Of a stretch of DNA of 64,000 bases, positions 39,625 through 63,488 are shown in pieces. A model generated the notes under the pieces. That model was not told the origin of the DNA. It made no database searches and worked only from the letters and a program-made list of their open reading frames with translations. The stretch comes from Branchiostoma floridae. Taxonomy: Eukaryota; Chordata; Leptocardii; Amphioxiformes; Branchiostomatidae. Every line of letters begins with the position of its first letter. Position 1 is the first letter of the stretch. The stretch lies in assembly GCF_000003815.2 (NCBI RefSeq), contig NC_049992.1, forward strand, positions 6,547,081-6,611,080, read 5' to 3'. A program made the position numbers and the translations under genes.

Positions 39625-39652
39625 CCCCCCCCCCCACACACACAAACGTACG
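39625..39652. repeat. Poly-C run with (CA) tract
   Basis: About 13 C residues followed by acacacacaaa. Minor simple repeat. Confidence 0.85.
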
Positions 39653-39802
39653 GACAAATTGCACGTACGGCGGGCTGTGCCCTTAACTTTGTGCAGTGTC
39701 CGAAAGACACGTGAGAGGTTAAACGAGAGGTCAGAGGAGGCGTGGTTTTAACACGAGTTCCTTCACCTTTACAGGTGATCAAGGTTAAAAGTGGTACATC
39801 GA

Positions 39803-39974
39803 ATAAATGAATGAATGAATGAATGAATAAATGAATGAGTGAGTGAGTGAGTGAGTGAGTGAGTGAATGAATGAGTGAGTGAGTGAGTGAATGAATGAAT
39901 GAATGAATGAATGAATGAATGAATGAATGAATGAATGAATGAATGAATGAATGAATGAATGAATGAATGAATGG
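39803..39974. repeat. (TGAA)n/(TGAG)n microsatellite
   Basis: About 170 bases of tgaa and tgag tetramers. It is followed by ggttttatttcgcatc, so on the minus strand it reads as an AATAAAACC end plus a cattcattcatt tail. That matches the tail style of the LINE at 60961-61446 and suggests the microsatellite grew from a LINE 3' tail. Confidence 0.92.
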
Positions 39975-40138
39975 TTTTATTTCGCATCGAGCAACAAACA
40001 ATAACATACAGTGGCAGCCTTTATTTCTTCGGCTGAATTGCAATACGCTTTACACATGTTACAATTAAAATGAACAGCAATAGAAGTGCACAATTCCAAA
40101 CATTATAAAACATAGATTATTAACGGTCGGTAGTAACC

Positions 40139-40571
40139 TTAACTATGGTTCGATATACCAGTACAGCCCAAACCGTGTGACTGACGCGAGCGGTATCTAT
40201 TTTCAATTTATGTACCATATATTGCCGAGTAACGCACTTTACAATTTACAGTCAGGTGCCATACATATACAGTACCGGGTAATAGTACACATGATACCTC
40301 AAGGTTTCATAGCGTACCATGAAACACGCAGGTAACATATAGGTGCTTTTATAGGTTAGCGCGCGTGAGCCATGTAATGCTAGTTCACCTTTATCCGTGG
40401 GGTGACCTTTACCCGTTGTAAACTAATTACTCACTATTTGTCCACGACATACGTATACCGGGGGTTACAGTGGGACTTTTAAAGAGTCCAATGATATTAC
40501 GCATGTTGCGAAAACCGCCAATGCTAATTATCTCGTCCTCGAGAGGCCATGGGGACAGCATCACGGTGTGT

Positions 40572-40611
<40 letters not shown>

Positions 40612-41060
40612 GTGTGTGTGTGTTGGGGGGGGGGGGGCGTTCGCACCAAATCGATCAACTGGCATAACCTCTCCTCTTCATAACCTTACATGCACCACGA
40701 TGTGACAAAGATCAATGCACGTGCCTCGGGGTACAAGACATTTTAACTAAGCACGCATAGCCTTTAGCAGCATCTGTATAGGTGAAAACGTGAGATACTT
40801 GTTATAACAACGTTACAATAGAGGAGTGTTTAAACCACACCGCTATGACCTCTTGCGTAACCTCTCATGTGCCTTCCAGGCTCATACAGAATGTCCCGAT
40901 GTAACCTTAAAGTTTACCAACGGTTGTTACCAATATAACACAAACCGTGTGATACGCCTGGTATCTATTTTTAAGGCACTATAAAGTAGGCCAGGTAAAG
41001 TACTTTGCGATTAACATTCAGTTACCATATACGAGTACATTTGTAGAACCAGATAACACA
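40139..41060. repeat. Two diverged direct copies of a ~140-bp segment
   Basis: 40139-40280 and 40919-41055 share caaaccgtgtga, ggtatctatttt and further blocks ending in an aaccagataa/accgggtaat variant. The spacing is about 780 bases. Likely an old duplication or two related element ends; function unknown. Confidence 0.55.
40567..40637. repeat. (TG)n followed by poly-G
   Basis: About 56 bases of tg repeats with one tgcg interruption, then about 14 G. Confidence 0.95.
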
Positions 41061-41696
41061 CCTTACTACTTCTATCCAGGTGGCATATAGGGTCAGATTA
41101 AATACCTTACGCCCTCCCCTCTCTGTACCCTTCATTAGTTTTGTAGATGGTATCGCCTCAATCTTTGTAATAATCTTTGTACCTCAACGAAAAAAAAATT
41201 TAGTTTGAAAGGCATAAACGCCAAGGTTTTCAGAAACTCAAGGTGATAAAAGATTTAGAGCCAGTGATAACTTAAAAGACGGTGATCTGTATTATTTCTT
41301 TTCATATTCTCTTTTCTGGTACCATCCTCTGGCGACGCTAACTAGCGATGGTACTTATATGTGCACGTTTTTGGCACAGACAATTAGAGGCAAGACGCTT
41401 TAACATGGAAACGTGTGAAATAACGTGATTTACGTTGATTGACAAACAGGATTTTACAGTACATTTGTTCCATTGTTGCACATCAAAGAGGGCATATCAG
41501 ACGTAACTGATGATTGGGCATTTTTTTAATTGCTGGACATTTTTGATTGGTTGAGCTGAAGCCTTCACCTTACCAAAGCTCCTCCCTGAATTCTACCCCA
41601 CGTTACTTTCACCAACCATAGAACTGCGTTCACTTACTACACAATAATGCGGAGAAATTTCCTTTAAAGGCATAAGAAAATTTGCATACGACGTGG

Positions 41697-41703
41697 TATA
41701 AAT
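41697..41703 (+). promoter_or_regulatory. Candidate TATA box of the LamG array gene
   Basis: TATAAAT. A start site about 30 bases on would give a short leader ending at aaataag|gtgtgt (donor after 41801). A leader intron could then join to the small exon at 43075. This is the only good promoter motif I see between the spacer and the first LamG exon, but the link is inferred. Confidence 0.4.
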
Positions 41704-41924
41704 TTCTGAAACTGGCCACTAAACACCAGTGCGCCCCGGTACCAGAGAAGACAACAAGACTTCAGACAGACTTTCTGTGTGCAGCGAACTGAACAAATAA
41801 GGTGTGTCTGCTTTTCATTGATTCATGATTAACACGATCATTACAGAGAATATCATTTCCTAGCTAAGCAAGCTAAACAAAATTTTGTCACCATTTAAAA
41901 TGTTGGCGTCGCGTAGCGTCTAGG

Positions 41925-42030
41925 TGAGGTATTTGGCTCAAAGCCCATAGATCTGGTATTCGAGTCTCCTGATATGCCATTTTGTTGTGCCTTTGAGAAG
42001 GCCATATAGCAGTAAGTCCCTCACTTCACT
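41925..42030 (+). mobile_element. tRNA-derived SINE-like segment
   Basis: Contains gcgtctaggtgaggtatttg (A-box-like region) and ctggtattcgagtctcctga (B-box-like GGTATTCGAGTC) at tRNA spacing. The rest does not fold as a tRNA. SINE remnant, not a tRNA gene. Confidence 0.4.
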
Positions 42031-42181
42031 ATGGTGAAAATATTCACCTATCTTCAGTTAGAGGCGTCCTACGGAAAACACTTACCCTAAGGTTAACATT
42101 GCTTGAAGAGAGCCACACATCGAGCACGTAAAACAACAATTTGAACTTATCGAGAAGAGTAGGGGTAACGTCGGCTATCAT

Positions 42182-42378
42182 AATTCCACCAGGTGCCATA
42201 ATACCGCCACCTCAAAAAAACGTTACTCTAGAGGTCTTCCAAAGATTGTCTTGAGCACCGAATCGTAAATATCCGAAATGTAATACATTTCAGATATTCA
42301 GGTGTTGACGACAATCTTGAGAAGTCCTCTATAACAACGTTATTGAGGTGGCGGTATAATGGCAACTGGTGGTATTAT
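42182..42378. mobile_element. ~195-bp palindromic MITE
   Basis: Left taccgccacctc and aacgtta; right taacgtt... and gaggtggcggta, with arms of about 70 bases converging on gaaatgtaatacatttc in the centre. No coding capacity. Confidence 0.82.
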
Positions 42379-43074
42379 GCAAATGTATGTTTAGAGGTGA
42401 GAGTAGGTAAATCAAATTTGTATGCAGCTTGAACGTTTCATGATTAGTAGCACAAATCTGTTTTGTTACACCATGAGATGGTTTACCATGCATGTTTGTA
42501 ATACAAATAAATACAAACAAACCCATTTGCCGTGTAATGTATAGAACCCGTTTTCAGATGAATACTTAAACCCCTGACTCTTTCCAATAGATCGTCTTCC
42601 CAACTAACATGTACGGTGGCTTCTTTTATCACTCATTTTTCTATGATAGATAATCTAAGGGTTTGAAGGTCATGTAAAGTTCGCTCGTCACCTGCGAAAT
42701 AGCTGTTATATATACCCGTATATAAGTTTTTATTCGGTTTGAAATTCAACTTCGGCGTATATCGCCCAGCCAAATCATGTCTTAGTCAACTAAGGAATTT
42801 TAAAAATCATGACGCAGTTGAACCGATTACAATCTGTCTTACCTGTTAACCTGTTGTACGACGAATTCTAAGCTAAATGCTACTAATAGTACTATCAACT
42901 GATTGCCAGTCGAGCTAAGACCTGCCTTTTTTACGTCGTTCGTCATGATAATGTCAGCAGTATCACAAGCAAGCTGTGATGCTTATCGACCTCACATTTG
43001 ACATGATACTTCGGAGGTTAAGCTTCAATAGTTCACATGTGACCTCCCGCGTCAGAGTTGGAACCGTTTGACAG

Positions 43075-46000
43075 CTCAATGCCTCAGGATGACGGATGGG
43101 TACGTGTGACCTCACATGCGGCTCTCCCTGTCAGAAGTAGAGCTTTGACAACCAAAACGTTTGCCTCGGGGTGCCCGCATCTAGCCAAGGCCACCTGGCT
43201 CCATATGTTCTACTTGTTGATTGTCTTGTTCTTCTGTTACAATGACTGTGAAACTATCAAATCATACGCGGATAACTTAATGTTTTTTTGGTGGAGATGT
43301 TCATTTGATTCGAAGCTCAGATTTTGTGAGCTCTGTGTTATCTTTTGAAACAGCTTCATTGCGCCACCATATTCCTTTGTTAAGATCTAACATTTGTGTT
43401 CTGAAAAAGAATTGAATACAATACTTTTTTCTATTTACAATTTGATCCGTGTTCACCATAGTGTTGGAAGAAAGGTTAGCATTATATTTATGATCACTAA
43501 CAACAGGGATACGCTTTCATGAAAACGGTTTGTCCCATTAGATGCATCATCAACTAATAAAAATACTGCAACTTGCAAAATGTGGTTCTCCAATGTTATT
43601 CTGTGTTGTTGTAGATGGCGTCTGGACTAGTCGGTCACTGGCCACTGAATTCTAAACATGGCGCCCGTGACGTCAGCGGCTATGGTAATCACGGCGTTCA
43701 GTTCGACACGGGGTTGGCGCAGGGGCCGGGGGGAGAGACTGATGTCGATGGAGCATTCTACTTCAAAGGAGCTGTTGGTAAACAATTATAGTTCTTTTGA
43801 ATGTATTATAGTCTTGCAACATCTTTGATTCTGTGGGGCACACATGACGCGGTGAAAATCCACATGTCTTCTGTTTAATAACTGTTGTTAGATTTGACAA
43901 AAGCAACGTGACCCTCAACATTCCACACACAGGTGATGCCAGATCCAAGTTGTAGATTGTGAATGTTTTAACCAACATGAATTTACTCCTCGGCATGAAC
44001 ATGAAGAAAACAAACTGTAAATGATCCAGTAAAAAAAAAACATTACAACATGCAACGTTACTTATGCTTTATGTAATTTATTTTTTTAATACCGAAGGCT
44101 CTAGGATCGAGTTTCCCAACAACGGAGCCCTGGCCCCAACATCCAACATGACCATGCAGGCCTGGGTCTACCCGGAGGGGCTAGCCGTCTCGCCCATCTT
44201 CAGCTACCAAACGGACCTGAAGAACGATCTCTACAAATATGGAGTCACCTTTTGGTTCCATAACACTGAAAGCAAGCTTTCTGCACAGTGAGATTTATTT
44301 CTCGTCACGAGATACTTTTTCGTCACGTACCCTTCTATAGGCTATCTATCCGAACTCATTGGGAGGCATATGTCTGTCTGTTTCTGTTTCTGGTATGTAA
44401 GGTCACTGTAAGTTTGAAAAGACCCTCTGGATTGAGAGAAGTGGAATATATTCTGGTCCATATAGTAGGTCACATAGTGGTTGCATGAGTAAAAAATCAA
44501 AGAGGACAACTGAAAGAAAGGAGAAATTAGTTTAGAGATGGATGTACAGAAATGTAATTGACCCGAATTAGGACTTTTATTGCGTAATTAATGATCTTAT
44601 TATTATTTCTTATGTGGTATTTTTTGGCATGACCAGCCCCGGGTTAATTTTAAGTCGGATTTAAAATCATCTTGGTAACTAATAGCCACTGTACTATGTG
44701 ACCTGTCCGTGAGAGGTACCCCGCCGGGACAAATTTGGGGCTTTGGGGCCAGCCAGAGCTACATCCCCTACGGGTACCGCTACAAATATGAGCAAAACAT
44801 AGCTAAGGATGTGGTTGCATTTCAGTTCTTTTTATTTCAATGTCTGCAGATTCGTTGACCAGGGTGGGAAATCATCAGCAGAAGTCAAAGCGGATGTGAT
44901 GACGGACGGAGAGTGGCAGTTCGTGACGGCCACCTACAGCAGTAAGACAGGCCTGGTGAAGCTGTATAGGAATGCCGAGGAGGTACAATGCCATTCCAAA
45001 TCATTATACTATACGTTTCTCTCATTTTTTTTATTCCACATTTAACACAACTGCTGACTGTGCAAACAAAACAATTTTTGGTTTGATATTCTTGATTTAT
45101 ATTTGCTGGATGGTTTGAATACTTTTGTTTGTTGAATAAAAGAAAAACCTTTGCCTTCACCTTCGGCATGGAAACTATGTTTTCGGTTGCTTATCTCTCT
45201 TCTCTTCTGTGTGTCCGTCCGTGAAGACGATTACTCAAGGATGCATCGGCGGATTGTCTTGATATTGGGGCAAGTTTTTATGAAACCAACAAATGTTTAG
45301 TTTTTGCCAGGTTATGTTTCACCAGGTTAACATCAATACGTTTATAAAATGTCTCCATGCAGGTTGCCTCCGAAGAAGTAGGGGTTCTGGATCTGGCCAC
45401 CAAGTATCCTGTGTGCATGGCCGGCAAACCGGCAGACGTCAATGGTAAAGAGGACAAGCGCTGCTTCAAGGGGCGTATTGCTCACATGCAGGTACAGCTT
45501 GTCTCGATCCTCAACTTTTCTTGTCCTGCTGAGTCCATATATATATACAGGTTGCACATCTATAATGCTTGTACTCGTATGTGTGTCCAGTATCTTTACG
45601 GGTTTGGGGTATTTCTCACTAAAATGCGGCATACCGCAGCAAACAGAATCATACCGAGAAGTAAATCTGCAGCAGCAGCACTGAATAGATCAAGTTTAGC
45701 GGGACAAGATTTAGAAAAAATCCATATCCACTTTTAGCAATGATGCTGAAAGTTTTAAAAAGAGTATCAATTTATAGTTGATAGTATGAATATATATATA
45801 CAATATACTGCTTTTCCCTCAGGTGTACAACACCGCCCTGACCCAGGAGGAGATCAAGGAAGTCATGGACCGTACCAGGGGGGTACGTGTGACCTCACAT
45901 GCGGCTCTCCCTGTCAGAAGTAGAGCTTTCTCACACGAAACGTTTGCTTCGGGGTCGCCACATCTAGTCAAGGCCGCAGAACTTCATACGTCTTACTTGT

Positions 46001-49000
46001 TGACTGTCCTGTTTCTCTGTTACAATCATGACCGAACATCTAACAACTAATATGTGGATAACTTAGCTCGGATTTCGGTCTCTGTGTTATTCGTTCCTTT
46101 TGAATAGAGCACATAGACTAGTAACTTCATTGCGTCACCATAATTATAGTAGCTAAGAATGTGTCAAGAAAAAGAATAGAATGCAATCTTGTTCTTCAGA
46201 GGATGTCGGTTTAGATCTAACAACTGAAGTATTTGAACCCAGTAGAACCATCGTTAACTACTATATGTGCTGTCGGTTGCAAATGTAATTGTCGAATGTT
46301 ATTCTGTGTTGTTGCAGATCGCGTCTGGACTAGTCGGTCACTGGCCACTAGATTCCAAACATGGCGCCCGTGACGTCAGCGGCTATGGTAATCACGGCGT
46401 GCAGTTCGACACGGGATTGGCACAGGGACCAGGGGGTGAGACTGATGTCGATGGAGCATTCTACTTCAAAGGAGCTGTTGGTAAACATTTTAAAACACAT
46501 TATAGTCTTATCATAGAAGTCCATCTGTTTTAGTAGTAATCGTAGTATAACGCTTAAATTTCTTCCAACTCAAAGGTATACACGGATCAATTCTTTAACG
46601 ACCACTGTCACCTTCTTCAGTAGAAGGCGACAGTGATCGTTGAAAATTTGATCCATATGTACCTTTGTGTTGAAAGAACGTTGACTATATTATAGTCTTG
46701 CCACACCTCTGATACTGTTGAATGGACCGTATGACACATGGAGCAGTGAAACCCCACATTTATTCGGTTAACTGATTTAAAAGTCTACAAAGGCATCATC
46801 ATCGCCAATATTCCACACACATGTGATGCGAGGTTTACAGCAAGTTATACATTAATATTGTAGATATTTTAAACAACATGAATCAAAGTACTCCTCGGCC
46901 TTAGGCAACAACATCAAGAACGAACTGTACAATGCTCCACCATCTAAAAAAAGGAAATGTTTAAATATGCAACGTTACTTTTGCTTATGCAATTGCTGTT
47001 GTGTTGAAAACCGAAGGCTCTAGGATCGAGTTTCCCAACAACGGAGCCCTGGCCCCAACATCCAACATGACAATGCAGGCCTGGGTCTACCCGGAGGGGC
47101 TAGCCGTCTGTCCGATCTTCAGCTACCAAACGGACCTGAAGAACGATCTCTACAAATATGGTGTCACCTTTTGGTTCCATAACACTGCAAGCAAGCTCTC
47201 TACACAGTGAGATATTTCTTCGTCACGTAGAAGAACTTAATTGCACGACAATTGTACATGATACAATATATGGCAACAGCCATTACATAAAGTACAAAAT
47301 CGAGGTATAGGATAAAGCTTAACAACCTAGTTAACATAACTAAAGGGCTAACATAATTCTCTGAGATAGTAATACAATGAAGTAGGCTAATCATCAGTTT
47401 GGGTATTCTTTCTAATAGCATAACGGTCCTTGATATATTTACCTATTATTGCATTATCGGAGTTCTGATATCTAAAGATATATACAAATTTGTTAAAAAT
47501 ATGACCAAAGCATAGCCATGAGTGTTGTTGCATTTATTGTTTTTATTTCAATGTCTCCAGATTCGTTGACCAGGGTGGGAAATCATCAGCAGAAGTCAAA
47601 GCGGATGTGATGACGGACGGAGAGTGGCAGTTCGTGACGGCCACCTACAGCAGCAAGACAGGCCTGGTGAAGCTGTACAGGAATGCCGAGGAGGTTCCAT
47701 GTCATTCAAAATCATTATAACAATACGTTTCCCTCATTTACCTTCGGCATGGGGACTATGTTTTCGGTTGCCTTTCTCTCTTTGTGTATCTGTCCGTGAA
47801 GACAATTACTCAAGGATGCATTGCTGGATTGTCTTGATATTGGGAAAGTTTTGATCAAACAACAAATGTTTAGTTTTTCCTGTTTGTGTTTTATCGGGCT
47901 AACATCAGGACGTTTATGAAATGTCTCCATGCAGGTTGCCTCCGAAGAAGTTGGGGTTCTGGAACTGGCCACCAAGTATCCTGTGTGCATGGCCGGCAAA
48001 CCGGCAGACGCCAATGGTAAAGAGGACAAGCGATGCTTCAAGGGGCGTATTGCGCACATGCAGGTACACCTGGTCTTGATTCTAAACTTTCCTTATCCTG
48101 TTGAGTCCATATATACACAGGTTGCACATATATAATGCCTGTACTCGTATGTGTGTCCAGTATCTTTACGGGTTTGGGGTGTTTCTCACTAAAATGCGGC
48201 ATACCGCAGCAAACAGAATCGAACGGAGAAGTAAATCTGCAGCAGCAGCACAGAATAGGTCAGGTTTAGCGGGACAAGGTTGAGGAAAAATCCATATCCA
48301 CTTTTAGCAATGATGCTGGTGAGCTTTAAATAGATTATCAATTTAAAGTTGATGGCATAAATATATATACAATATACTGCTTTTCCCCTCAGGTGTACAA
48401 CACCGCCCTGACCCAGGAGGAGATCAAGGAAGTCATGGACCGTACCAGGGGGGTACGTGTGACCTCACATGCGGCTCTCCCTGTCAGAAGTAGAGCTTTC
48501 TCACACGAAACGTTTGCCTCGGGGTGGCCTCATCTATTCAAGGTCGCAGGACCTCATACGTCCTACCTGTTGACTGTCCTATTCTTCTGCTACAATCGTG
48601 ACTGTACATCTAACAATTAATATGTGGATAACTTAGCTTTGGTCTCTGTGTTATTCATTACTATTGAACAGAACACAAAAACTAGTAACTTCATTGCGTC
48701 ATCATATTTATAGTCGCTAAGAATGTGTCAAGAAAAAGTCTTTGAATAGAATGCAATTTTGTTCTTCAGAGGATTTCGGTTTAGATCTAACAACTGAAGT
48801 ATTTGAACCCAAAAGAACCATCGTTAACTACTATAGGTGCTGTCGGTTGCAAATGTAGTCTCCAATGTTATTCTGTGTTGTTGTAGATGGCGTCTGGACT
48901 AGTCGGTCACTGGCCACTAGATTCCAAACATGGCGCCCGTGACGTCAGCGGCTATGGTAATCACGGCGTGCAGTTCGACACGGAGATGGCACAGGGGCCG

Positions 49001-52000
49001 GGGGGAGAGACTGATGTCGATGGAGCATTCTACTTCAAAGGAGCTATTGGTAAACATTTTAAAACACATTATAGTCTTATCATAAAAGTTCATCTGTGTA
49101 AGAAGTAATCGTAGTATAATGCAAAACTTTCTTCCAACTCAAAGGTATACACGGCCGGATCAAATTTTTAACGACCACTGTCACCTTCTTCAGTAGAAGG
49201 CGACAGTGATCGTTAAAAATTTGATCCATATATACCTTTGTGTTGGAAGAACGTTTAGCATTGTACTATATTATAGTCTTGCCACACCTCTGATACTGTT
49301 GAATGGACCGTATGACACATGGAACAGTAAAACCACACATTTATTCGGTTAGCTGATTTAAAAGTCTACAAAGGCATCATCATCGCCAATATTCCACACA
49401 CATGTGATGCGAGGTTTACAGCAAGTTATACATTAATATTGTAAATATTCTAAACAACATGAATCAAAGTACTCCTCGGCCTTGGGCAACAGAATCAAGA
49501 ACAAACTGTACAATGCTCCACCATCTAAAAAAAGGAAATATTTAAATATGCAACGTTACGTTTGCTTATGCAATTGCTGTTTTGTTGAATCCCGAAGGCT
49601 CTAGGATCGAGTTTCCCAACAACGGAGCCCTGGCCCCAACATCCAACATGACAATGCAGGCCTGGGTCTACCCGGAGGGGCTAGCCGTCTGTCCGATCTT
49701 CAGCTACCAAACGGACCTGAAGAACGATCTCTACAAATATGGTGTCACCTTCTGGTTCCATAACACTGAAAGCAAGCTTTCTACACAGTGAGATATTTCT
49801 TCGTCACGTAGAAGAACTTAATTGCACGACAATTGTACATGATACAATATATGGCAACAACTATTACACAAAGTATAAAATCGAGGTATAGGATAAAGCT
49901 TAACAACCTAGTTAACATAACTAAAGGGCTAACATAATTCTCTGAGATAGTAATACAATGAATTAGTTTCGGTATTCTTTCTAATAGTAGAACGGTCATT
50001 GATATATTTGCCTATTTTTGCATTATGGGAGTTCAAATATATCTTAAGATATATAAACATTTGTTACAAATATGACCAAACCATAGCTATGGATGTGGTT
50101 GCATTTAATTTTTTTAAATTTCAATGTCTCCAGATTCGTTGACCAGGGTGGAAAATCATCAGCAGAAGTCAAAGCGGATGTGATGACGGACGGAGAGTGG
50201 CAGTTCGTGACGGCCACCTACAGCAGCAAGACAGGCCTGGTGAAGCTGTACAGGAATGCCGAGGAGGTGCCATGTCATTCAAAATCATTATAACTATACG
50301 TTTCCCTCATTTTCCGCATAAAACACAACTGCTGACTGTGCAAAAAAACACTTTGCTTTTTGGTTTGATATTATTTCATACCTTCTTCTTTTCTACTTGC
50401 TGGATAGTTTTCATACTTTTGTTTTTGTTGAATAAAAAACCCTTTGCTTTTACCTTCGCCATGGGGACTATGTTTTCGGTTGCTTTTCTCTCTTCGTGCG
50501 TCTGTCCGTGAAGACGATTACTCAAGGATGCATTGGCGGATTGTCTTGATATTGGGGAAAGTTGTGATGAAACCAACAAATGTTTAGTTTTTGCCTGGTT
50601 GTATTTCATTGGGCTAACATCAATACGTTTGTGAAATGTTTCCATGCAGGTTGCCTCCGAAGAGGTTGGGGTTCTGGAACTGGCCACCAAGTATCCTGTG
50701 TGCATGGCCGGCAAACCGGCAGACGCCAATGGTAAAGAGGACAAGCGCTGCTTCAAGGGGCGCATTGCTCACATGCAGGTATACCTTGTCTTGATTCTAA
50801 ACTTTCCTTGTCCTGTTAAGTCCATATAGATACAGGTTGCACATATATACGAGGGGTGATCAATAAGTTCTCGGCCTCACCAAGAAATAATAAGGACAAC
50901 TCAAATTTTCATGCACAACATCATAGTATGAAGCCTTTTATCAATACCCACCAAATTTCAAATCATTGCAGTGATTACTTTACAGGCATTCGTTTTTGGC
51001 AAATCAGAAGGTAAGTGGCGAGAAAAAAGTGGTGTGAATTGTGATCAGACATGTGTGTGTCGAGTTCCCCATGCCGTAAATTAAGAAAAGACATTGTCAA
51101 GATATTTGATAATGATTCTCTTCCTTTTTCAAGCAAAAAAAATGGGTGTCTGCCTTCCAGCAGCGCAAATTGACCCGCACACTCAGGTCAGGTCAATTGT
51201 CCACGTTTTTTTCCTTCTCCCTTACCTAACATTACTGGGTGTCGCCTGCAAAGTAATGATCACAATAATTTGAATTTTGGTACATATTTATATAAGACTT
51301 TATACTTGACATTTATGCTTCGAAATCTGAGCTGTGCTTATTATTTCTCGGTAAAACCGAGGACTTATTGATAATCCTACGTACACGTATAAAGTCCTGT
51401 ATAAATGTGTACCAAAATTCAAATTATTGTGATCATTACCTTGTAGGCGACACCCAGTAACATTAGGTAAGGGATAACGAAAAAAAATGTGGACAATTGA
51501 GCTGCCACCTGAAGTGTACGGGTCAAATTGTTTGATCACACTTCACCCTTCTTTTTCTCGCCACTTACCTTCTTATTTAGAAAAAACGAATGCCGGGAAA
51601 GTAATGACTCCAATGATTTGTAATTAGGAGGATATTGATAAAAGGCTTCGTACTACGAAGTTGTGCCTCAAAGGCAGACTTGTGCTTGTCATTTATAGAT
51701 GAGGCCGAGGACTTATTGATCACCCCTCGTAATGCCTATACTCGTATGTGTGTCCAGTATCTTTACGGGTTTGGGGTGTTTCTCACTAAAATGCGACATA
51801 CCGCAGCAAACAGAATCAAACGGAGAAGTAAATCTGCAGCAGCAGCACAGAATAGGTCAGGTTTAGCGGGACAAGGTTGAGGAAAAATCCATATCCACTT
51901 TTAGCAACTATGCTGATGAGTTTTAAATAGATTATCAATTTAAAGTTGATGGTATAAATATATATACAATATACTGCTTTTCCCCTCAGGTGTACAACAC

Positions 52001-55000
52001 CGCCCTGAGCCAGGAGGAGATCAAGGAAGTCATGGACCGTACCAGAGGGGTACGTGTGACCTCACATGCGGCTCTCCCTGTCAGAAGTAGAGCTTTCTCA
52101 CACGAAACGTTTGCCTCGGGGTGGCCTCATCTAGTCAGGCCGCAGAATTTCATACGTCCTACTTGCTGACTGTCCTATTCTTCTGTTACAATCATGACTG
52201 TGCATCTAACAATTAATATGTGGATAACTTAGCTCAGATTTTGGTCTGTGTGTTATTCATTACTATTGAACAGAACACATAGACTAGTAACTTCTTTGCG
52301 TCATCATACTTATAGTAGCTAAGAATGTGTCAAGAAAAAGAATAGAATGCAATTTTGTTCTTCAGAGGATGTAGAATTAGATCTAACAACTGAAGTATTT
52401 GAACCCAATGGAACCATCTTTAACTACTATATGTGCTGTCGGTTGCAAATGTAATTGTCCAATGTTATTCTGTGTTGTTGTAGATCGCGTCGTCTGGACT
52501 AGTCGGTCACTGGCCACTAGATTCCAAACATGGCGCCCGTGACGTCAGCGGCTATGGTAATCACGGCGTGCAGTTCGACACGGGGTTGGCACAGGGGCCA
52601 GGGGGAGAGACTGATGTCGATGGAGCATTCTATTTCAAAGGAGCTGTTGGTAAACAATTTCAAAACACATTATAGTCTTATCATAGAAATCCATCTGTGT
52701 TAGCAGTAATCGTAGTATAATGCTTAAATTTCTTCCAACTCAAAGGTATACCGGATCAAATTTTGATTGACCACTGTCACCTTCTCCAGTAGAATGTGAC
52801 AGTGCTCGTTGAAAATTTGATCCATATATACCTTTGTGTTGGAAGAAAATTTAGCATTGTACTATATTATAGTCTTGCCACACCTCTGATGCTGTGGAAT
52901 GGACCGTATGACACATGGAACAGAGAAACCGCACATTTATTCGGTTAGCTGAATTAAAAGTCTACAAAGGCATGATCATCGCCAATATTCCACACACATA
53001 TGATGCGAGGTTTACAGCAAGTTATACATTAATATTTTAAATATTTTAAACAACATGAATCAAAGTACTCCTCGGCCTTAGGCAACAACATCAAGAACAA
53101 ACTGTACAATGCTCCACCATGTAAAAAACAAGAAATGTTTAAATATGCAACGTTCCTTTTGCTTATGCAATTGCTGTTTTGTTGAATCCCGAAGGCTCTA
53201 GGATCGAGTTTCCCAACAACGGAGCCCTGGCCCCAACATCCAACATGACAATGCAGGCCTGGGTCTACCCGGAGGGGCTAGCCGTCTGTCCGATCTTCAG
53301 CTACCAAACGGACCTGAAGAACGATCTCTACAAATACGGTGTCACCTTTTGGTTCCATAACACGGAAAGCAAGCTTTCTACACAGTGAGATATTTCTTCG
53401 TCACGTAGAAGAACTTAATTGCACGACAATTGTACATGATACTATATATGGCAACAACTATTACACAAAGTACAAAATCGAGGTATAGGATAAAGCTTAA
53501 CAACCAAGTTAACATAACTAAAGGGCTAGCATAATTCTCTGAGATAGTAATACAATGAATTAATTTCGATATTCTTTTTAATAGCAGAACGGTCCTTAAT
53601 ATATTTGCCTATTTTTCCATTATGGGAGTTCAAATATATCTAAAGATATATAAAAATTTGTTACAAATATGACCAAACCATAGCTAGGGATGTGGTTGCA
53701 TTTAATCTTTTTTTAAATTTCAATGTCTCCAGATTCGTTGACCAGGGTGGGAAATCATCAGCAGAAGTCAAAGCTGATGTGATGACGGACGGAGAATGGC
53801 AGTTCGTGACGGCCACCTACAGCAGCAAGACAGGCCTGGTCAAGCTGTACAGGAATGCCGAGGAGGTACCATCTCATTCAAAATCATTATAACTATACGT
53901 TTCCCTCATTTACCTTCGGCATGGGGACTATGTTTTCGGTTGCTTTTCTCTCTTTGTGCGTCTGTCCTTGAAGACAATCACTCAATTGATCAAGGATGCA
54001 TAGGCGGATTGTCTTGATATTGGGGAAAGTTTTGATGAAACCAACAAATGTTTATTTTTTGCCTGGTTGTATTTCATCGGGCTAACATCAATACGTTTGT
54101 GAAATGTTTCCATGTAGGTTGCCTCCGAAGAGGTTGGGGTTCTGGAACTGGCCACCAAGTATCCTGTGTGCATGGCCGGCAAACCGGCAGACGCCAATGG
54201 TAAAGAGGACAAGCGCTGCTTCAAGGGGCGTATTGCTCACATGCAGGTACACCTTGTCTTGATTCTAAACTTTCCTTGTCCTGTTTAGTCCATATATATA
54301 CACGTTGCACATATATAATGCCTGTACTCGTATGTGTACATATAGTATATACAGTACATACAGTATCCATATCCACTTTTAGCAATGATGCTGATAAGCT
54401 TTAAATAGATTATCAATTTAAAGTTGATGGTATAAATATATATACAATATACTGCTTTTCCCCTCAGGTGTACAACACCGCCCTGACCCAGGAGGAGATC
54501 AAGGAAGTCATGGACCGTACCAGGGGGGTACGTGTGACCTCACATGCGGCTCTCCCTGTCAGAAGTAGAGCTTTGTCACACGAAACGTTTGCCTCGGGGT
54601 GGCCTCGTCTAGTCAAGGCCGCAGCATTTCATACATCCTACTTGCTGACTGTCCTTTTCTTCTGTTACAATCACGACTGTGCATCTAGTAATTAATATGT
54701 GGATACCGTAGCTCAGATTTTGATCTCTGTGTTATTCATTACTATTGAACAGAACACATAGACTAGTAACTTCTTTGCGTCATCATACTTATAGTCGCTA
54801 AGAATGTGGCAAGAAGATGAATAGAATACAATTTTGTTCTTCAGAGGATGTAGGATTAGAACTAACAACTGAAGTACTTGAACCCAATAGGACCATCTTT
54901 AACTACTATATGTGCTGTCGGTTGCAAATGTAATTGTCCAATGTTATTCTGTGTTGTTGTAGATGGCGTCTGGACTAGTCGGTCACTGGCCACTAGATTC

Positions 55001-58000
55001 CAAACATGGCGCCCGTGACGTCAGCGGCTATGGTAATCACGGCGTGCAGTTCGACACGGGGTTGGCGCAGGGGCCAGGGGGAGAGACTGATGTCGATGGA
55101 GCATTCTACTTCAAAGGAGCTGTTGGTAAACATTCTTAAAACACATTATAGTCTTATCATAGAACTCCATCTGTGTTTTACTTAGCAGTAATCGTAGTAT
55201 GATGCTTAAATTTCTTCCAACTCAAAGGTATACACGGATCAAATTTTAGACGACCACTGTCACCTTCTTCAGTAGACTGCGACAGTGATCGTTGAAAGTT
55301 TGATCAATATATACCTTTGTGTTGGAAGAACGTTTAGCATTGTACTATATTATAGTCTTGCCACACCTCTGATACTGTTGAATGGACCGTATGACACATG
55401 GTGCAGTGAAACCCCACATTTATTCGGTTAGCTGATTTAAAAGTCTACAAAGGCATCATCATCGCCAATATTCCACACACATGTGATGCGAGGTTTACAG
55501 CAAGTTATACATTAATATTGTAAATATTTTAAACAACATGAATCAAAGCACTCCTCGGTCTTGGGCAACAACATCAAGAACAAACTGTACAATGCTCCAC
55601 CATCTAAAAAAAGGAAATGTTTAAATATGCAACGTTACTTTTGCTTATGCAATTGCTGTTTTGTTGAATCCCGAAGGCTCTAGGATCGAGTTTCCCAACA
55701 ACGGAGCCCTGGCCCCAACATCCAACATGACAATGCAGGCCTGGGTCTACCCGGAGGGGCTAGCCGTCTGTCCGATCTTCAGCTACCAAACGGACCTGAA
55801 GAACGATCTCTACAAATATGGAGTCACCTTCTGGTTCCATAACACTGCAAGCAAGCTTTCTACACAGTGAGATATTTCTTCGTCACGTAGAAGAACTTAA
55901 TTGCACGACAATTGTACATGATACAATATATATCAACAACTATTACACAAAGTACAAAATCGAGGTATAGGTCAAAGCTTTACAACCTAGTTAACATAAC
56001 TAAAGGGCTAACATAATTCTCTGAGATAGTAATACGACGAATTTGTTTCGGTATTCTTTCTAATAGCTGAACGGTGCTTAATATATTTGCCTATTTTTGC
56101 ATTATGGGAGTTCAAATATATCTAAAGATATATAAAAATTTGGTACAAATATGGCCAAACCATAGCTATGGATGTGGTTGCATTTAATTTTTGTTTAATT
56201 TCAATGTCTCCAGATTCGTTGACCAGGGTGGGAAATCATCAGCAGAAGTCAAAGCGGATGTGATGACGGACGGAGAGTGGCAGTTCGTGACGGCCACCTA
56301 CAGCAGCAAGACAGGCCTGGTGAAGCTGTACAGGAATGCCGAGGAGGTACCATGTCATTCAAAATCATTAAAACTATACGTTTACGTCATTTTCCGTATA
56401 AAACACAACTGCTGGCTGTGCAAAAAACACTTTGCTTTTTGGTTTGATATTATTTCATACATTCTTGTTTTGTACTTGCTGAATGGTTTTCATACTTTTG
56501 TTTTGTTGAATAAAAAACCCTTTGCTTTTATCTTCAACACGGGGACTATGTTTTCGGTTGCTTTCCTTCCTTTGTGCGTCTGTCCGTAAAGACGATTACT
56601 CAAGGATGCATTGGCGGAATGTTTTGATATTGGGTCAAGTTTTGATGAAACCAACAAATGTTTAGATTTTGCATGGTTGTGTTTCATCGGGCTAACATCA
56701 ATACGTTTGTGAAATGTTTCCATGCAGGTTGCCTCCGAAGAAGTTGGGGTTCTGGATCTGGCTACCAAGTATCCTGTGTGCATGGCCGGCAAACCGGCAG
56801 ACGCCAATGGTAAAGAGGACAAGCGCTGCTTCAAGGGGCGCATTGCTCACATGCAGGTACACCTTGTCTTGATTCTAAACTTTCCTTGTCCTGTTGAGTC
56901 CATATATATACAGGTTGCACATATATAATGCCTGTACTCGTATGTGTGTCCAGTATCTTTACGGGTTTGGGGTGTTTCTCACTAAAATGCGACATACCGC
57001 AGCAAACAGAATCAAACGGAGAAGTAAATCTGCAGCAGCAGCACAGAATAGATCAAGTTTAGCGGGACAAGGTTGAGGAAAATCCATATCCACTTTTAGC
57101 AATGATGCTGATGAGCTTTAAATAGGTTATCAATTTAAAGTTGATGGTATAAATATATATACAATATACTGCTTTTCCCCTCAGGTGTACAACACCGCCC
57201 TGACCCAGGAGGAGATCAAGGAAGTCATGGACCGTACCAGGGGGGTACGTGTGACCTCACATGCGGCTCTCCCTGTCAGAAGTAGAGCTTTCTCACACGA
57301 AACGTTTGCCTCGGGGTGGCCTCATCTAGTCAAGGCCGCAGGACCTCATACGTCCCACTTGTTGACTGTCCTATTCTTCTGTTACAATCACGACTGTGCA
57401 TCTAGCAATTAATATGTGGATAACTTAGCTCAGATTTTGGTCTCTGTGTTATTCATTACTATTGAACAGAACACATAGACTAGTAACTTCTTTGCGTCAT
57501 CATACTTATAGTCGCTAAGAATGTGTCAAGAAGAAAAATAGAATACAATTTTGTTCTTCATAGGATGTAGGATTAGAACTAACAACTGAAGTACTTGAAC
57601 CCAATAGGACCATCTTTAACTACTATATGTGCTGTCGGTTGCAAATGTAATTGTCGAATGTTATTCTGTGTTGTTGTAGATGGCGTCTGGACTAGTGGGT
57701 CACTGGCCACTAGATTCTAAACATGGCGCCCGTGACGTCAGCGGCTATGGTAATCACGGCGTGCATTTCGACACGGAGATGGCACAGGGGCCAGGGGGAG
57801 AGACGGATGTGGATGGAGCATTCTACTTCAAAGGAGCTGTTGGTAAACAATAGTTCTTTTGAATATATTATAGTCCTGCAACATCTTTGATACTGTGGGG
57901 CAGACATGGCGCGGTGAAAATCCACATGTATTCTGTTTAATAACTAGTGTTAGATTTGACAAAAGCAACGTGACCCTCAGCATTCCACAAACAGGTGATG

Positions 58001-61000
58001 CCAGATCCAAGTTGTACATTATGAATGTTTTAACCAACATGAATTTACTCCTCGGCATGAACATGAAGAAAACAAACTGTAAATGATCCGTTTAAAAAAA
58101 AGACAAATTACAAACATTACAATATTCAACGTTACTTATGCTTTACATAATTCATTTTTTAACACCGAAGGCTCTAGGATCGAGTTTCCCAACAACGGAG
58201 CCCTGGCCCCAACATCCCAAATGACAATGCAGGCCTGGGTCTACCCGGAGGGGCTAGCCGTCTGTCCGATCTTCAGCTACCAAACGGACCTGAAGAACGA
58301 TCTCTACAAATACGGAGTCACCTTTTGGTTCCATAACACTGCAAGCAAGCTTTCTACACAGTGAGATTATGTTTTCGTCACGTACCCGTCTATAGGCTAT
58401 CCATCCTAACTCATTGGGTGGTATCTGTCTGCCTGTCTGTTTGTGTTTCTGGTATGTGAGGTCACTGTAAGTTTTTTGACGGATGCACAGATGTAACGTT
58501 TGCCAATAAGACTATAATCGCGTAGATAATGATAAAATCATTATTTATTGTGTGGTAATGTTGGGCATGGCCGGGTTCCGGGTTGATTTTAAGCCGGATT
58601 TGAAATCAACCATGGACTTGGTAACAAATAGCCTCCGTGACCTGCCCGTGAGAGGTACCCCGCTGGGACAACTTTGGGGCCAGCCAGAGCCACATCCCCA
58701 ACGGGAAGCAGTACAAGGAGAAGAACTTTATTGCACGACCATTGTACATGATACAATGTATGGCAATAACTATTACACAAACTAAAAAATAGAGGTATAG
58801 GATAAAGCTTTAGAACCTAGTTAACATAACGATAAGGGCTAACATGATTCTTTGAGATAGTAATACAATGAAGTAGGCTAATCATCAGTTTCTGTATTCT
58901 TTCTAATAGCAGAACGGTCCTTGATATATTTACTTATAATTGCATTATCGGAGTTCTGATATCTAAAGATATATACAAATTTATTTAAAATATGATCAAA
59001 GCATAGCCATGAGTGTTGTTGCATTTCATTTTTTTTTTTATTTCAATGTCCCCAGATTCGTTGACCAGGGTGGGAAATCATCAGCAGAAGTCAAAGCTGA
59101 TGTGATGACGGACGGAGAGTGGCAGTTCGTGACGGCCACCTACAGCAGTAAGACAGGCCTTGTCAAGCTGTACAGGAATGCCGAGGAGGTACCATGTCAT
59201 TCAAAATCATTATAACCATACGTTTCCCTCATTTACCTTCGTCATGGGAACTATGTTTTCGGTTGCTTTTCTCTCTTTGTGTGTCTGTCCGTGAAGACTA
59301 TTACTCAAGGATGTATTGGCGGATTGTCTTGATATTGGGGAAAGTTTTTATGAACCTAACAAATGTTTTGTTTTTGCCTGGTTGTGTTTCATCGGACTAA
59401 CATCAACACCTTTATAAAATGACTCCATGCAGGTTGCCTCCGAAGAAGTTGGGGTTCTGGAACTGGCCACCAAGTATCCTGTGTGCATGGCCGGCAAACC
59501 GGCAGACGCTAATGGTAAAGAGGACAATCGCTGCTTCAAGGGGCGTATTGCTCACATGCAGGTACATCTTGTCTCGATCCTCAATTTTCCTTGTCCTGTT
59601 GAGTCCAATATAGATACATGTTGCACATATATAATGCCTATACTCGTATGTGTGTCCAGTATCTTTACGGGTTTGGGGTATTTCTCACTAAAATGCGGCA
59701 TACCGCAGCAAACAGAATCAAACGGAGAAAAACATCTGCAGCAACAGAATAGGTCAAGTTTAGCAAGATAATGTTTAGGGAAAATCCATATCCACTTTTA
59801 GCAATGATGCTGATGAGATTTAAATAGGTTATCAATTTAAAGTTGATGGTATAAATATATATACAATATACTGCTTTTCCCTCAGGTGTACAACACCGCC
59901 CTGACCCAGGAGGAGATCAAGGAAGTCATGGACCGTACCAGGGGGGTACGTGTGACCTCACATGCGGCTCTCCCTGTCAGAAGTAGAGCTTTCTCACACG
60001 AAACGTTTGCCTCGGGTGGCATCATCTAGTCAAGGCCGCAGAATTTCATACGTCCTACTTGCTGACTGTCCTATTCTTCTGTTACAAGCATGACTGTGCA
60101 TCTAACAATTAATATGTGGATAACTTAGCTCAGATTTCGGTCTCTGTGTTATTCATTACTATTGAACAGAACACATAGACTAGTAACTTCTTTGCGTCAT
60201 CATACTTATAGTAGCTAAGAATGTGTCAAGAAAAAGAATAGAATGCAATTTTGTTCTTCAGAGGATGTAGAATTAGATCTAACAACTGAAGTATTTGAAC
60301 CCAATGGAACCATTTTTAACTACTATATGTGCTGTCGGTTGCAAATGTAATTGTCCAATGTTATTCGGTGTATGTTGTTGTAGATCGCGTCGTCTGGACT
60401 AGTCGGTCACTGGCCACTAGATTCCAAACATGGCGCCCGTGACATCAGCGGCTATGGTAATGACGGCGTGCATTTCGACACGGGGTTGGCACAGGGGCCG
60501 GGGGGAGAGACGGATGCGGACGGAGCCTTCTACTTCAAAGGAGCTATTGGTAAACATTTGTTGTTGTTGTTGTTTACATATTACAGTCTTATCATGGAAG
60601 CTCATCTGTGCTGGTAGTAATCACAGTAGAATTTAAAGTATACGCGGATTAAATTTACAACAAACACTGGCGACAATAATAGTTGAAACTTTGATCAGTG
60701 TATACCTTTGTGTTGAAAGAAAGTTGAGCACTGTACTATATCATAGTCTTGCCACATCTTTAATACTGTGTGGCATACATTTAATGACTGCATGATACAT
60801 GGAGCGGTAAAAATCCACATGCACTTGGTTTAATAACTGATTATTAATTCTACAAAAAAGTTCGTAACACAGGTGGTGCCAGGTTTACACCAAATTGTAT
60901 ATGGAACTTGTAAATACTCCTCGGCCGTATGCAACAAAATCAAGGAAATAAACTGTATACAGCACAGAGTAGCTGTCACTAAACTCCGGATTAGTTGCCA

Positions 61001-63488
61001 CAAGTTACATATCGAAACTGGAAGGCACAACCGCACCCCTCTGCAGCATAGAGTCTGCCAATTTTGTGATCTACAACATGTAGAAGATGAACAGCATTTT
61101 ATTTTACACTGTAAATTGTACCATAATGAACGGATTGTGCTTTATGAATATATCAGAAAAGAGTTCCCATATTTTGAACATCTTAATGCAACGGATAAAT
61201 TTCTATTTTTGATACGCCTAGACAAACCCTGTATATCAAACATTATATGTTCTTATATCTACATCTGTACAAAGAAGCGAGAAGATGTCGACCATCCTGT
61301 TAGCTTAGTACCTTCAACTAGTTAAATTGTATCCTGTTTTTTTTTTCATATGTTTGTTATTCTGTTATCAGTCATGTCTGTTATCAGTGACCTGTACCTA
61401 GCCCGTCGAGGCATGAATGTACAATAAAGGTCTTTCATTCATTCATTATCCATTTGAAAAAGAAAACTTTAAAACATACAACGTTACATGCTTTACTTCA
61501 TGTAATTGTTCTTTTGTTGAATACCGAAGGCTCTAGGATCGAGTTTCCCAACAACGGCGCCCTGGCCCCAACATCCTACATGACCATGCAGGCCTGGGTC
61601 TACCCGGAGGGGCTAGCCGTCTCACCCATCTTCAGCTACCAAACGGACCTGAAGAACGATCTCTACAAATACGGAGTCACCTTTTGGTTCCATAATACTG
61701 CAAGCAAGCTTTCTGCACAGTAAGGTTTTTTTTCTTTGCATACCTTTCTTAATAATATATAGGTTGTTTATCTTAACTCCGTGGATAATATCTGTCTGCC
61801 TGTTTGTGATTCTGGTATGTGAGGTCACTGCCGTTTTTTAAAAGAACCTTTGGATAGGGTGAAGGAAAATAAGAATAAGTTCTGGTCCTTATAACAGTTC
61901 ATATGAATCTGAATGGGGTAAAAAAAATCAAGGAGGACAACCGAAAGAAAGGAGAATGAAATCCAATGTTTTTCAGCAGAAATTAGTTTAGAGGCGGATG
62001 TACACAGATGTAACGGACGCGAATTATGACTTTTATTGCGTAATTAATAATGAAATTATTACTTCTTGTGTGGTAATTTGGGGCATGACCGGGCCCCGGC
62101 TTACTTTCAAGTTGGATTTCAAATCAACTAGGGACTTGGTAACAAATAGCCGCCGTGACCTGCCACTGAGAGGTACCCCGCCGGGGCAACTTTGGGGCTT
62201 ATGGGCCAGTCAGAGCTACATCCCCTACGGGTAGCGCTACAAATATGACCAAAGCATAGCTATGGATGTGGTTGCATTTCATTTTTTCTTATTTCAATGT
62301 TCCCAGATTCGTTGACCAGGGTGGCAAAACATCGCCTGAACTCAAAGCAGAAGTGATGACGGACGGAGAGTGGCAGTTCGTGACGGCCACCTACAATGCC
62401 ACCACAGGCCAGGTCAAGCTGTACAGGAATGCCGAGGAGGTACGATACGGTATCATTCAAAATCATAATAACTATACGTTTCCCCTTTTCCCCCGTATAA
62501 AACACAGCTGCTGGGCTGTACAAAATCTCGCTTCATCTTAGTTTCCAAGCAGACGTTTTAGTTGGATGAAAAAAAAAAGAATTTGGCCAAATAGGGATAA
62601 ATAAGTTGCCATGGAATTTCAATCAGTCACTACTAGGCCAATTAACTCCTACTAGGCTTTTATTCCTAGAAGTCCCCTATTACTGTTCGGCCAGACCGGA
62701 GTCTGGTAGAAACTAGCCTCTTCTATTACCTTCGACAAGGGGGCAAATAAAGTAATCTAAGTTTAGGTACCCTATCCGCTGTTTTGAACCGCAGGGACGG
62801 ATTTTGTTTCGGAGTTTGAAAAATATAACTCAATGAGATGTTACCAAATTAACCTTATATGATGAATCACTGTTGTTATATTTTTGTCATGTTGTTTCAT
62901 TTTATGCCTGGAATTGTTACATTGGGTTGACATCAAGGCCTTTATGAAATGACTCCATGCAGGTTGCCTCCGAAGAAGTTGGGGTTCTGGAACTGGCCAC
63001 CAAGTCTCCTGTGTGCATGGCCGGCAAACCGGCAGACGCTAATGGTAAAGAGGACAAGCGCTGCTTCAAGGGGCGCATTGCTCACATGCAGGTACACTTT
63101 GTCTCGATCCTCAACTTAACAACCCTTGTCTTACTGAATCCGTATATACACGGGTTGCACACATGTATAATACCTGCTGTAGGTCGGCCCTGAATCTTTA
63201 CAGGTTTGGGGTATTTCTACGTACGTGCGGCATACTGCAGGTAACCGCATATACAGTGGAGAATAAATCTGCAGCAGCAGCACAGAATAGGTCCTGTTTA
63301 GCGGGACAAGGTTTAGAAAAAAATCCATATCCACTTTTAGCAATGATGCTGATGAGCTTTCAATAGACTTTCAATTGAAAGTTGATGATACATACAATAT
63401 ACTGCTTTTCCCTCAGGTGTACAACATCGCCCTGACCCCGGAGCAGATCAAGGAAGTCATGGACCGTACCAAGAAAGGGTACTACTAG
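43075..63488 (+). CDS. Seven-module LamG-like (jelly-roll) repeat protein
   Basis: The gene is a small first exon (43075-43099, ATG at 43079, MPQDDGW), then seven copies of a five-exon module (A-E; 163, 190, 133, 129 and 60 bases; 225 residues). It stops at TAG 63486-63488, giving about 1,587 residues. Each module is one concanavalin-A-like LamG domain: GLVGHWPLDSKHGARDVSGY, MTMQAWVYPEG, TDGEWQFVTATYSSKTGLVK, LYRNAEE, two Cys in exon D, and FKGRIAHMQVYNTALTQEEI. Such domains bind sugars, matrix proteins or other ligands outside cells. Exons join A-B phase 1, B-C phase 2, C-D, D-E and E-A phase 0, so the whole unit is 0-0 symmetric and can be added without breaking the frame. No signal peptide is seen, so an upstream exon or another start may be missing. 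No transmembrane segment is visible. Confidence 0.9.
43615..45882 (+). CDS. LamG module 1
   Basis: Exons 43615-43777, 44098-44287, 44850-44982, 45363-45491 and 45823-45882. Distinguishing residues: NSKHG (others have DSKHG), VSPIFSY (shared only with module 7) and PADVNG in exon D (PADANG elsewhere). Its A-B intron is short (320 bases) and like that of module 6. Its B-C intron has no LINE insert. Exon A begins with ATG, so it could be the true translation start if the exon at 43075 is not used. Confidence 0.93.
46318..48452 (+). CDS. LamG module 2
   Basis: Exons 46318-46480, 47017-47206, 47561-47693, 47935-48063 and 48393-48452. Exon A begins ATC, not ATG. The A-B intron has the hairpin insert (about 46573-46666). 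The B-C intron has the LINE 3' fragment (about 47230-47490) in minus orientation. The C donor is gttcca, where most modules have gtacca. Confidence 0.93.
46573..46666. repeat. Hairpin insert in A-B intron (module 2; also modules 3, 4, 5)
   Basis: aggtatacacggatcaa and cgaccactgtcaccttct on the left pair with ggcgacagtgatcgttg and ttgatccatatgtacct on the right, around cttcagtag. Equivalent hairpins lie at about 49142-49243, 52743-52834 and 55226-55318. A weak trace is at 60640-60710 in module 7. Absent from modules 1 and 6. Confidence 0.8.
47230..47490 (-). mobile_element. LINE 3'-end fragment in B-C intron (module 2; also 3, 4, 5, 6)
   Basis: On the minus strand this matches the 3' end of the LINE at 26913-28310. 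Shared blocks are attctttctaatagca, ccttgatatatttacctat, gcattat-ggag and taaagatatatacaaat. Equivalent inserts lie at about 49807-50075, 53407-53665, 55875-56145 and 58733-58985. All have the same boundaries, so this was one insertion copied with the module. Confidence 0.88.
48887..52049 (+). CDS. LamG module 3
   Basis: Exons 48887-49049, 49598-49787, 50134-50266, 50650-50778 and 51990-52049. It carries FDTEMAQ in exon A (shared with module 6) and LSQEEI in exon E (LTQEEI elsewhere). The D-E intron is enlarged by the 880-bp inverted-repeat element at 50850-51729. Hairpin and LINE fragment are present as in module 2. Confidence 0.93.
50850..51729. mobile_element. 880-bp TA-flanked element, compound of two related units
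   Basis: Outer ends cgaggggtgatcaataagtt and atcacccctcg with TA on each side, as in 17923-18317. An internal end (gaggacttattgataatcct) lies near 51360-51380. A second inner inverted pair (cattactgggtgtcgcct / aggcgacacccagtaacatt) lies around 51226-51470. Found only in module 3, so it inserted after the modules had duplicated. Confidence 0.85.
52484..54527 (+). CDS. LamG module 4
   Basis: Exons 52484-52649, 53195-53384, 53733-53865, 54118-54246 and 54468-54527. Exon A has one extra codon (ASSGLVG), shared only with module 7. The D acceptor is tag where the others have cag. The D-E intron has lost the gggtttggggt block present in the other modules, replaced by a short tatatacagtacatacag stretch. 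Confidence 0.93.
54963..57244 (+). CDS. LamG module 5
   Basis: Exons 54963-55125, 55677-55866, 56214-56346, 56728-56856 and 57185-57244. Exon A starts ATG. Hairpin in the A-B intron (about 55226-55318) and LINE fragment in the B-C intron as in modules 2-4. The C-D intron is of the long type (with caaaaaacactttgcttttt), shared with module 3. Confidence 0.93.
57680..59945 (+). CDS. LamG module 6
   Basis: Exons 57680-57842, 58171-58360, 59056-59188, 59433-59561 and 59886-59945. A mosaic: its A-B intron matches module 1 (no hairpin), but its B-C intron contains both the module 1/7-type sequence (gtgagaggtaccccgctggg) and the LINE fragment found in modules 2-5. One Lys-to-Asn change (EDNRC) in exon D and PTSQMTM in exon B are private. 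Confidence 0.93.
60384..63488 (+). CDS. LamG module 7 (last, most diverged)
   Basis: Exons 60384-60549, 61530-61719, 62307-62439, 62963-63091 and 63417-63488. Exon C differs most (KTSPELKAEVM; YNATTGQVKLY, against SSAEVKADVM; YSSKTGLVKLY). Exon E reads YNIALTPEQIKEV and runs past the usual donor into RTKKGYY and TAG. A different LINE fragment (60961-61446) sits in the A-B intron and a dispersed repeat (62545-62745) in the C-D intron. Greater divergence fits an older or terminal unit that escaped homogenisation. Confidence 0.92.
60961..61446 (+). mobile_element. LINE C-terminal fragment with 3'UTR and CATT tail (module 7)
   Basis: The plus-strand frame from about 60965 to the TAA at 61323 reads VAVTKLRISCHKLHIETGRH and a zinc knuckle CQFCDLQHVEDEQHFILHC, as in the other two LINEs. 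It then has an untranslated stretch with acaataaaggtc and ends cattcattcatt. A 5'-truncated insertion in the same sense as the LamG gene. A different family from the insert in modules 2-6. Confidence 0.88.
62545..62745. mobile_element. Dispersed repeat in module 7 C-D intron
   Basis: Relative of 9160-9400: ccaagcagacgtttta, gccaaatagggataaataag, then a ggccagaccggagtctggta block. Absent from other modules. Confidence 0.6.

Follow-up and report, generated by a model that had tools for sequence, protein, structure and literature searches.

In LPA, kringle IV type 2 (KIV-2) is a coding variable number tandem repeat with 1 to ~40 units per allele, the unit measuring 5.6 kb and holding two exons (PMC11462820), and DMBT1 has alleles with 7-21 SRCR domains, more domains giving better bacterial binding (PMC9038570), as described in the sections of these papers cited here. 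For domain repeats generally, the cited sections of a wider survey describe older ends and a younger middle, and note that, where exon shuffling is the means of expansion, domains may be gained singly (Bjorklund 2006, PMC1553488). Here we set beside these systems a stretch of 64,000 nucleotides (nt) of the Branchiostoma floridae (amphioxus) genome (assembly GCF_000003815.2, contig NC_049992.1, positions 6,547,081 to 6,611,080), hereafter the window, in which positions 43615-63488 (+) carry seven back-to-back five-exon units, M1 to M7, delimited by self-comparison and splice-site anchoring. The best reading of this array is an in-gene tandem amplification of a lectin-like domain module, a reading which has one assembly and this window as its basis; all coordinates below are those of the window.

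The modules, all on the plus strand (+), are M1 at 43615..45882 (exons A 43615-43777, B 44098-44287, C 44850-44982, D 45363-45491 and E 45823-45882), M2 at 46318..48452 (A 46318-46480, B 47017-47206, C 47561-47693, D 47935-48063, E 48393-48452), M3 at 48887..52049 (A 48887-49049, B 49598-49787, C 50134-50266, D 50650-50778, E 51990-52049), M4 at 52484..54527 (A 52484-52649, B 53195-53384, C 53733-53865, D 54118-54246, E 54468-54527), M5 at 54963..57244 (A 54963-55125, B 55677-55866, C 56214-56346, D 56728-56856, E 57185-57244), M6 at 57680..59945 (A 57680-57842, B 58171-58360, C 59056-59188, D 59433-59561, E 59886-59945) and the terminal M7 at 60384..63488 (A 60384-60549, B 61530-61719, C 62307-62439, D 62963-63091, E 63417-63488, with a TAG stop). 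An original prediction, made from the letters of the stretch, had described seven units with the same exon sizes. The seven units were found, but the sizes (163/190/133/129/60 nt) are true of 32 of the 35 exons: exon A has 166 nt in M4 and M7, which have one added codon, and exon E of M7 has 72 nt and ends in TAG. The predicted spacing of 2.5-3.6 kb agrees with the measured distances between exon A starts, the first positions of the modules given above, which are 2703, 2569, 3597, 2479, 2717 and 2704 bp from M1 to M7. The M3 unit is long because of an element of ~884 bp with inverted ends, which M3 alone carries, in its D-E intron (50849..51732, edges approximate). The self-comparison proposed with the prediction gave the expected block, in which the region at ~43.1-63.5 kb consists of mutual BLAST matches of 2.0-2.6 kb at 92-95% identity (E = 0), far above chance. 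A tblastn search of the window with one module returned 38 matches at E <=10, of which 36 lie inside the array and the other two are weak (E 4.3 and 6.0), so that no extra module copy was seen.

The modelled introns all begin with a GT donor and end with an AG acceptor, and every module starts and ends in phase 0, as had been predicted. Once spliced, the 35 exons give 4,743 nt in one frame (1,580 codons), with the sole stop at the end, in M7. The array thus shows consecutive units, a shared exon order, shared phases and a frame that is open throughout, as an in-gene tandem array does. The possibility that exon E continues as coding sequence into the following intron was considered and rejected, as the frame is open at first but meets 1-nt deletions in M3 and M6. 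The Pfam profile scan took in two of the seven modules, M1 and M7, and both exceed the gathering cut-off of 27.6 for Laminin_G_3 (PF13385), with 76.0 bits (E 4.6e-21, profile positions 4-151 of 151) and 70.3 bits (E 2.5e-19, positions 5-151), respectively. The cut-off of 25 for Pentraxin (PF00354) was narrowly missed by the same modules (24.9 and 22.3 bits), and the solved structures closest in sequence to M1 are PTX3 pentraxin domains (E 2.1e-4). The modules therefore appear to be related to pentraxins, although not classed as such, and each would form a complete lectin-like domain of ~225 residues. Together with the single frame, the Laminin_G_3 matches support the central claim of the prediction, a tandem amplification of a phase-0 five-exon LamG module within one gene. 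Such a gene would encode at least seven consecutive Laminin_G_3 (concanavalin-like, pentraxin-related) domains, one per symmetrical phase-0 five-exon block, and by analogy with DMBT1 its product is probably a multivalent binding protein with an avidity set by the number of modules.

Synonymous (dS) and nonsynonymous (dN) divergence was computed with the extra codon of M4 and M7 aligned properly. The 15 pairs among M1-M6 have a dS of 0.041-0.134, a dN of 0.002-0.025 and a dN/dS of 0.02-0.28; dS is 0.041-0.091 in the six pairs among M2-M5, and the six pairs involving M7 reach 0.126-0.193 for dS and 0.044-0.053 for dN. Divergence of the introns within M2-M5 is 0.049-0.071 (A-B), 0.040-0.099 (B-C), 0.076-0.166 (C-D), 0.030-0.118 (D-E, with the M3 element excluded) and 0.041-0.091 (E-A), that is, about the same as that of the silent sites, which argues for purifying selection more than youth as the source of the protein identity. 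Among the variable codons of M2-M5, 19 are silent and 7 of 26 change the amino acid (P = 7e-8 against the site proportion, in a rough binomial test). Near-identity of the coding sequence had been predicted to be a sign of recent amplification; the low dN beside the values of dS does not bear this out, and the near-identity of the protein is due chiefly to purifying selection rather than to extreme youth. Introns, which were said to align over most of their length, do so end to end in M2-M5, except for indels (deletions in the C-D intron of M2 and M4 and in the D-E intron of M4, and the insertion in M3), but not in M1, M6 and M7, where the A-B and B-C introns are partly other versions. The A-B introns of these three modules differ by 22-29% from those of M2-M5, and the B-C introns of M1 and M7 are not really alignable with them. 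Either the exons were homogenised after the introns had diverged, or the odd introns were changed by larger events, such as indels. Homogenisation of exons only (e.g. by way of complementary DNA), which the much greater likeness of the exons might suggest, is not needed within M2-M5, where silent sites and introns are equally diverged and only dN is low; it is still conceivable between the intron classes (M1, M6 and M7 versus M2-M5), given A-B introns 22-29% apart and a dS <=0.134 over M1-M6.

The introns also carry structural markers of different age. An old part of the B-C intron is present in M1, M6 and M7 and has been lost from M2-M5, while M2-M6 hold a new B-C sequence, the end of which matches a repeat elsewhere in the window (26881-27019) at ~76%. 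The fragment of this repeat lies at 47358-47493 in M2, 49962-50064 in M3, 53565-53661 in M4, 56047-56142 in M5 and 58849-58980 in M6, and was not found in M1 or M7. The outside copy stands at the end of a 473-codon frame (26913-28334, minus strand), which looks like a long interspersed nuclear element (LINE) by eye and has no Pfam reverse-transcriptase match, and it adjoins a gap of N. As the B-C intron of M6 holds both the old part and the new sequence, the latter was probably gained while the old part was still there, and loss of the old part would then have preceded the spread of M2-M5. A palindrome in the A-B intron is common to M2-M5; M7 retains a diverged trace of it (80-86% over ~90-100 bp), and M1 and M6 share another version of this intron, 7% apart. 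The sequence thus reads as a layered array, in which M1 and M7 appear to keep older intron versions, M6 is intermediate and M2-M5 form a younger core. With at least three layers of intron markers, the array is not the product of one burst, and the suggestion of a single expansion caught at an early stage was not upheld.

Some of these markers conflict with each other. A deletion of ~140 bp in the C-D intron is present in M2, M4 and M6 and absent from M1, M3, M5 and M7, so that together with the old B-C part it occurs in all four combinations among the modules, which requires either exchange or repeated mutation. M6 has an A-B intron that differs by 7% from that of M1 versus 26-29% from those of M2-M5, and a new B-C sequence like that of M2-M5, which M1 lacks. 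Seven markers make 21 pairs, eight of which show all four combinations; three of the eight rest on a palindrome call for M7 that was set by hand, and four on the extra codon of M4 and M7, which sits in a TCG/TCT run and may have arisen twice. The only pair free of both weak markers is that of the old B-C part and the C-D deletion. The conflicting intron markers point to exchange between modules, the mechanism of which we infer from the pattern. As a whole, we consider it probable that one gene with tandem-duplicated modules, later unequal exchange and purifying selection accounts for the array.

The edges of the unit may still be visible. The intron before M1 (43098..43614, +) is homologous to the six E-A introns between modules, although BLAST matches only its first ~180 bp and last ~40 bp. 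Homology with the inter-module introns begins at the upstream donor, in a GGGTAC (43098-43103, +) that would be the left edge of the unit, and the same motif is found at the inter-module junction and just 5' of the terminal stop (63477..63482, +), the putative right edge. Upstream of GGGTAC, the 5' flank of M1 matches exon E of M1 at 10 of 40 positions, and downstream of it M7 matches the E-A intron of M1 at 11 of 40; both are at chance level. This pattern would be the trace expected from a tandem duplication bounded at 43098 and 63482. A one-module ancestor would have been duplicated in tandem, the duplicated stretch reaching from the donor upstream of exon A to a point just short of the terminal stop, and the former last exon would have lost its stop and gained a donor. 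Later unequal exchange would have enlarged M2-M5, perhaps partly by two-module blocks, and yielded hybrids like M6, while purifying selection, as seen in dN/dS, would keep the domain sequence.

The first 47 bp of these introns (43100..43146, +, in the copy before M1) are identical before M1 and after exon E of M1-M6, that is, in all seven copies. In the copy before M1, the 132 bp that follow are 20-25% away from any of the other six, and among M1-M6 another 379 gap-free columns include 70 that vary. At those rates, 47 bp would stay unchanged with a probability of 1e-6 to 7e-5, according to a simple calculation in which relatedness is ignored. Four of the seven copies were folded, and their RNA structure was no better than that of shuffled sequences (z -0.30 to -1.28). 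A splicing element, an alternative donor and late conversion are possible reasons for the identity. It can only tentatively be proposed, and we regard it as rather doubtful in its entirety, that the founding event is preserved here: that a tandem duplication with a 6-bp overlap, GGGTAC, put the donor of the upstream intron in the place of the stop and thereby made the terminal exon internal and phase 0 at a single stroke, that the 47-bp intron start has since been kept for splicing, and that exons kept exchanging between modules with diverged introns.

Several observations weigh against the explanation by duplication, exchange and selection in one gene, or against parts of it. The 5' end was not located: no start codon was found upstream of M1, three plus-strand frames at 34001-43618 have no Pfam match at E <=0.1, and a crude scan for signal peptides at 31900-43614 gave five candidates, three of which lie in a CA/GT microsatellite and none of which is convincing. 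Positions 43033-43092 partly copy the intron start (local score 19, best of 500 shuffles 13), which makes an upstream coding exon there doubtful. None of the six inter-module introns contains AATAAA or ATTAAA, and AATAAA follows M7 at 63655 and 63900, but these signals occur ten times in the introns within modules and once in the intron before M1, so their absence between modules is weak evidence for one gene. If M7 ends today as the ancestral module did, the simplest junction would leave exon A 2 nt out of frame, and a further small indel would be needed. The alternation of the C-D deletion suggests duplication by two-module blocks, which is based mainly on one intron; a strict two-module repeat was rejected, as it fits this deletion and the other introns do not show the same pairing. 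Finally, a substitution-run test in the style of GENECONV gave p < 0.05 for five of the six pairs among M2-M5, and, from exon C to the E-A intron, for 8 of 10 pairs among M2-M6 and 10 of 15 among M1-M6. These values were not accepted as evidence of conversion, since most runs border on large indels of the C-D and D-E introns. Once 15 columns around indels of >=5 are masked, one of six pairs among M2-M5 stays below 0.05 (M4-M5, p 0.014), as do 2 of 15 among M1-M6 (exons C-E and the E-A intron), and none does after Bonferroni correction. The best remaining case is that of M3 and M6 in the E-A intron (6 differences in 433 positions, p 0.0048). As the run test is lost after masking, the case for exchange rests on the structural markers.

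Among the alternatives, an ancient array whose size has been stable, with no recent gain of modules and with concerted evolution as the cause of their likeness, fares best, although we hold it to be unlikely. It would explain why the A-B introns of M1 and M6 are 25-29% from those of M2-M5, and the B-C intron of M1 unalignable, when dS does not exceed 0.134 over M1-M6. M6 combines an exon B of the M2-M5 type (proportion of synonymous differences 0.062 versus M2-M5 and 0.086 versus M1) with an A-B intron of the M1 type and a B-C intron that begins as in M1 and M7; this suggests exon homogenisation between modules with already diverged introns. The case of exon B is however built on few sites, conversion tracts within M2-M5 are not significant once masked, and derived intron structures, among them the lack of the old B-C part, are common to M2-M5 from one end of the unit to the other, for which duplication is a simpler cause than many long conversions.

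Duplication within one gene must also be weighed against an expansion made by the assembly, in which two haplotypes with fewer modules were joined end to end and some of M2-M5 are alleles. Very polymorphic outbred animals may show allelic divergence of such a size, and the dS of 0.041-0.091 and intron divergence of mostly 3-12% in M2-M5 could fall within it. The assembly does have gaps of N in the window, but only two (3753-4075 and 26387-26880), and none is within the array. The nearest pair moreover shifts by segment (M3-M4 for the B-C, M2-M5 for the D-E and M3-M6 for the E-A intron) without one block matching another all the way through, and modules have private markers (the M3 element, the M4 deletion and the M7 insertion), all of which makes this account improbable. 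That the modules are alternative cassettes chosen in the manner of Dscam, not all in one mRNA, would be allowed by the phase 0 at both ends, with which skipping preserves the frame, but is very improbable given that each module is a whole five-exon domain with ordinary splice sites.

The insertion private to M7 lies in its A-B intron (60950..61440, +, edges approximate) and is LINE-like by eye. The same is true of a 722-codon open frame at 18843-21011 (+), which resembles a LINE reverse transcriptase. Head to head with the LamG gene is an OATP (SLCO) organic anion transporter gene with a Kazal domain, in pieces spread over several frames at 22600-31500 (-), and fragments of a Fasciclin-domain gene are found at 15100-16040 (-). 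Imperfect inverted repeats at 42179-42379, 28417-28534 and 23402-23571 are possibly small transposons. Four copies of a 146-bp unit with 96% matches (4110-4696) stand beside a gap of N, and a direct repeat of ~1 kb (2137-3745, offset ~0.6 kb, 89% identity) ends near one. Searches for relatives in non-animal collections gave no tblastn match to one module in plasmids, and confirmed none among 75 pattern matches in viral contigs and 105 in genome contigs, where the query was an alignment of four of the seven modules. Rfam gave no match at the gathering threshold. Titles and abstract openings searched in the literature held nothing on this gene, from which no claim of unpublished status is made.

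Compared with the systems described at the outset, the amphioxus array is a new example of a known mode of domain-repeat gain, that of LPA KIV-2 and DMBT1, and involves no new principle. As far as the cited sections describe it, KIV-2 is alike in having tandem multi-exon units of a whole domain in one gene, with the introns repeated too and a comparable scale of the unit; it differs in the unit (two exons and 5.6 kb versus five exons and 2.5-3.6 kb here) and in the domain family, and variation in unit number between alleles is reported for LPA, whereas the amphioxus array is known from one assembly. DMBT1, in the sections cited, likewise has a tandem array of binding domains in one gene, and its binding data support the idea of avidity; an allelic range is reported there, while the LamG array is known from the sequence of one assembly. 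The young M2-M5 core fits the general pattern of domain-repeat expansion given in the cited part of the survey, and the alternating C-D deletion may fit it too, although the survey covers proteomes and exon structures, as opposed to an order of events read from intron markers in one gene. It is these layered markers that make part of the history of a domain expansion readable from one sequence, with old, young and hybrid modules side by side. If the number of units varies between individuals, the array would offer a natural test of the number of lectin-like domains versus binding, as LPA and DMBT1 do.
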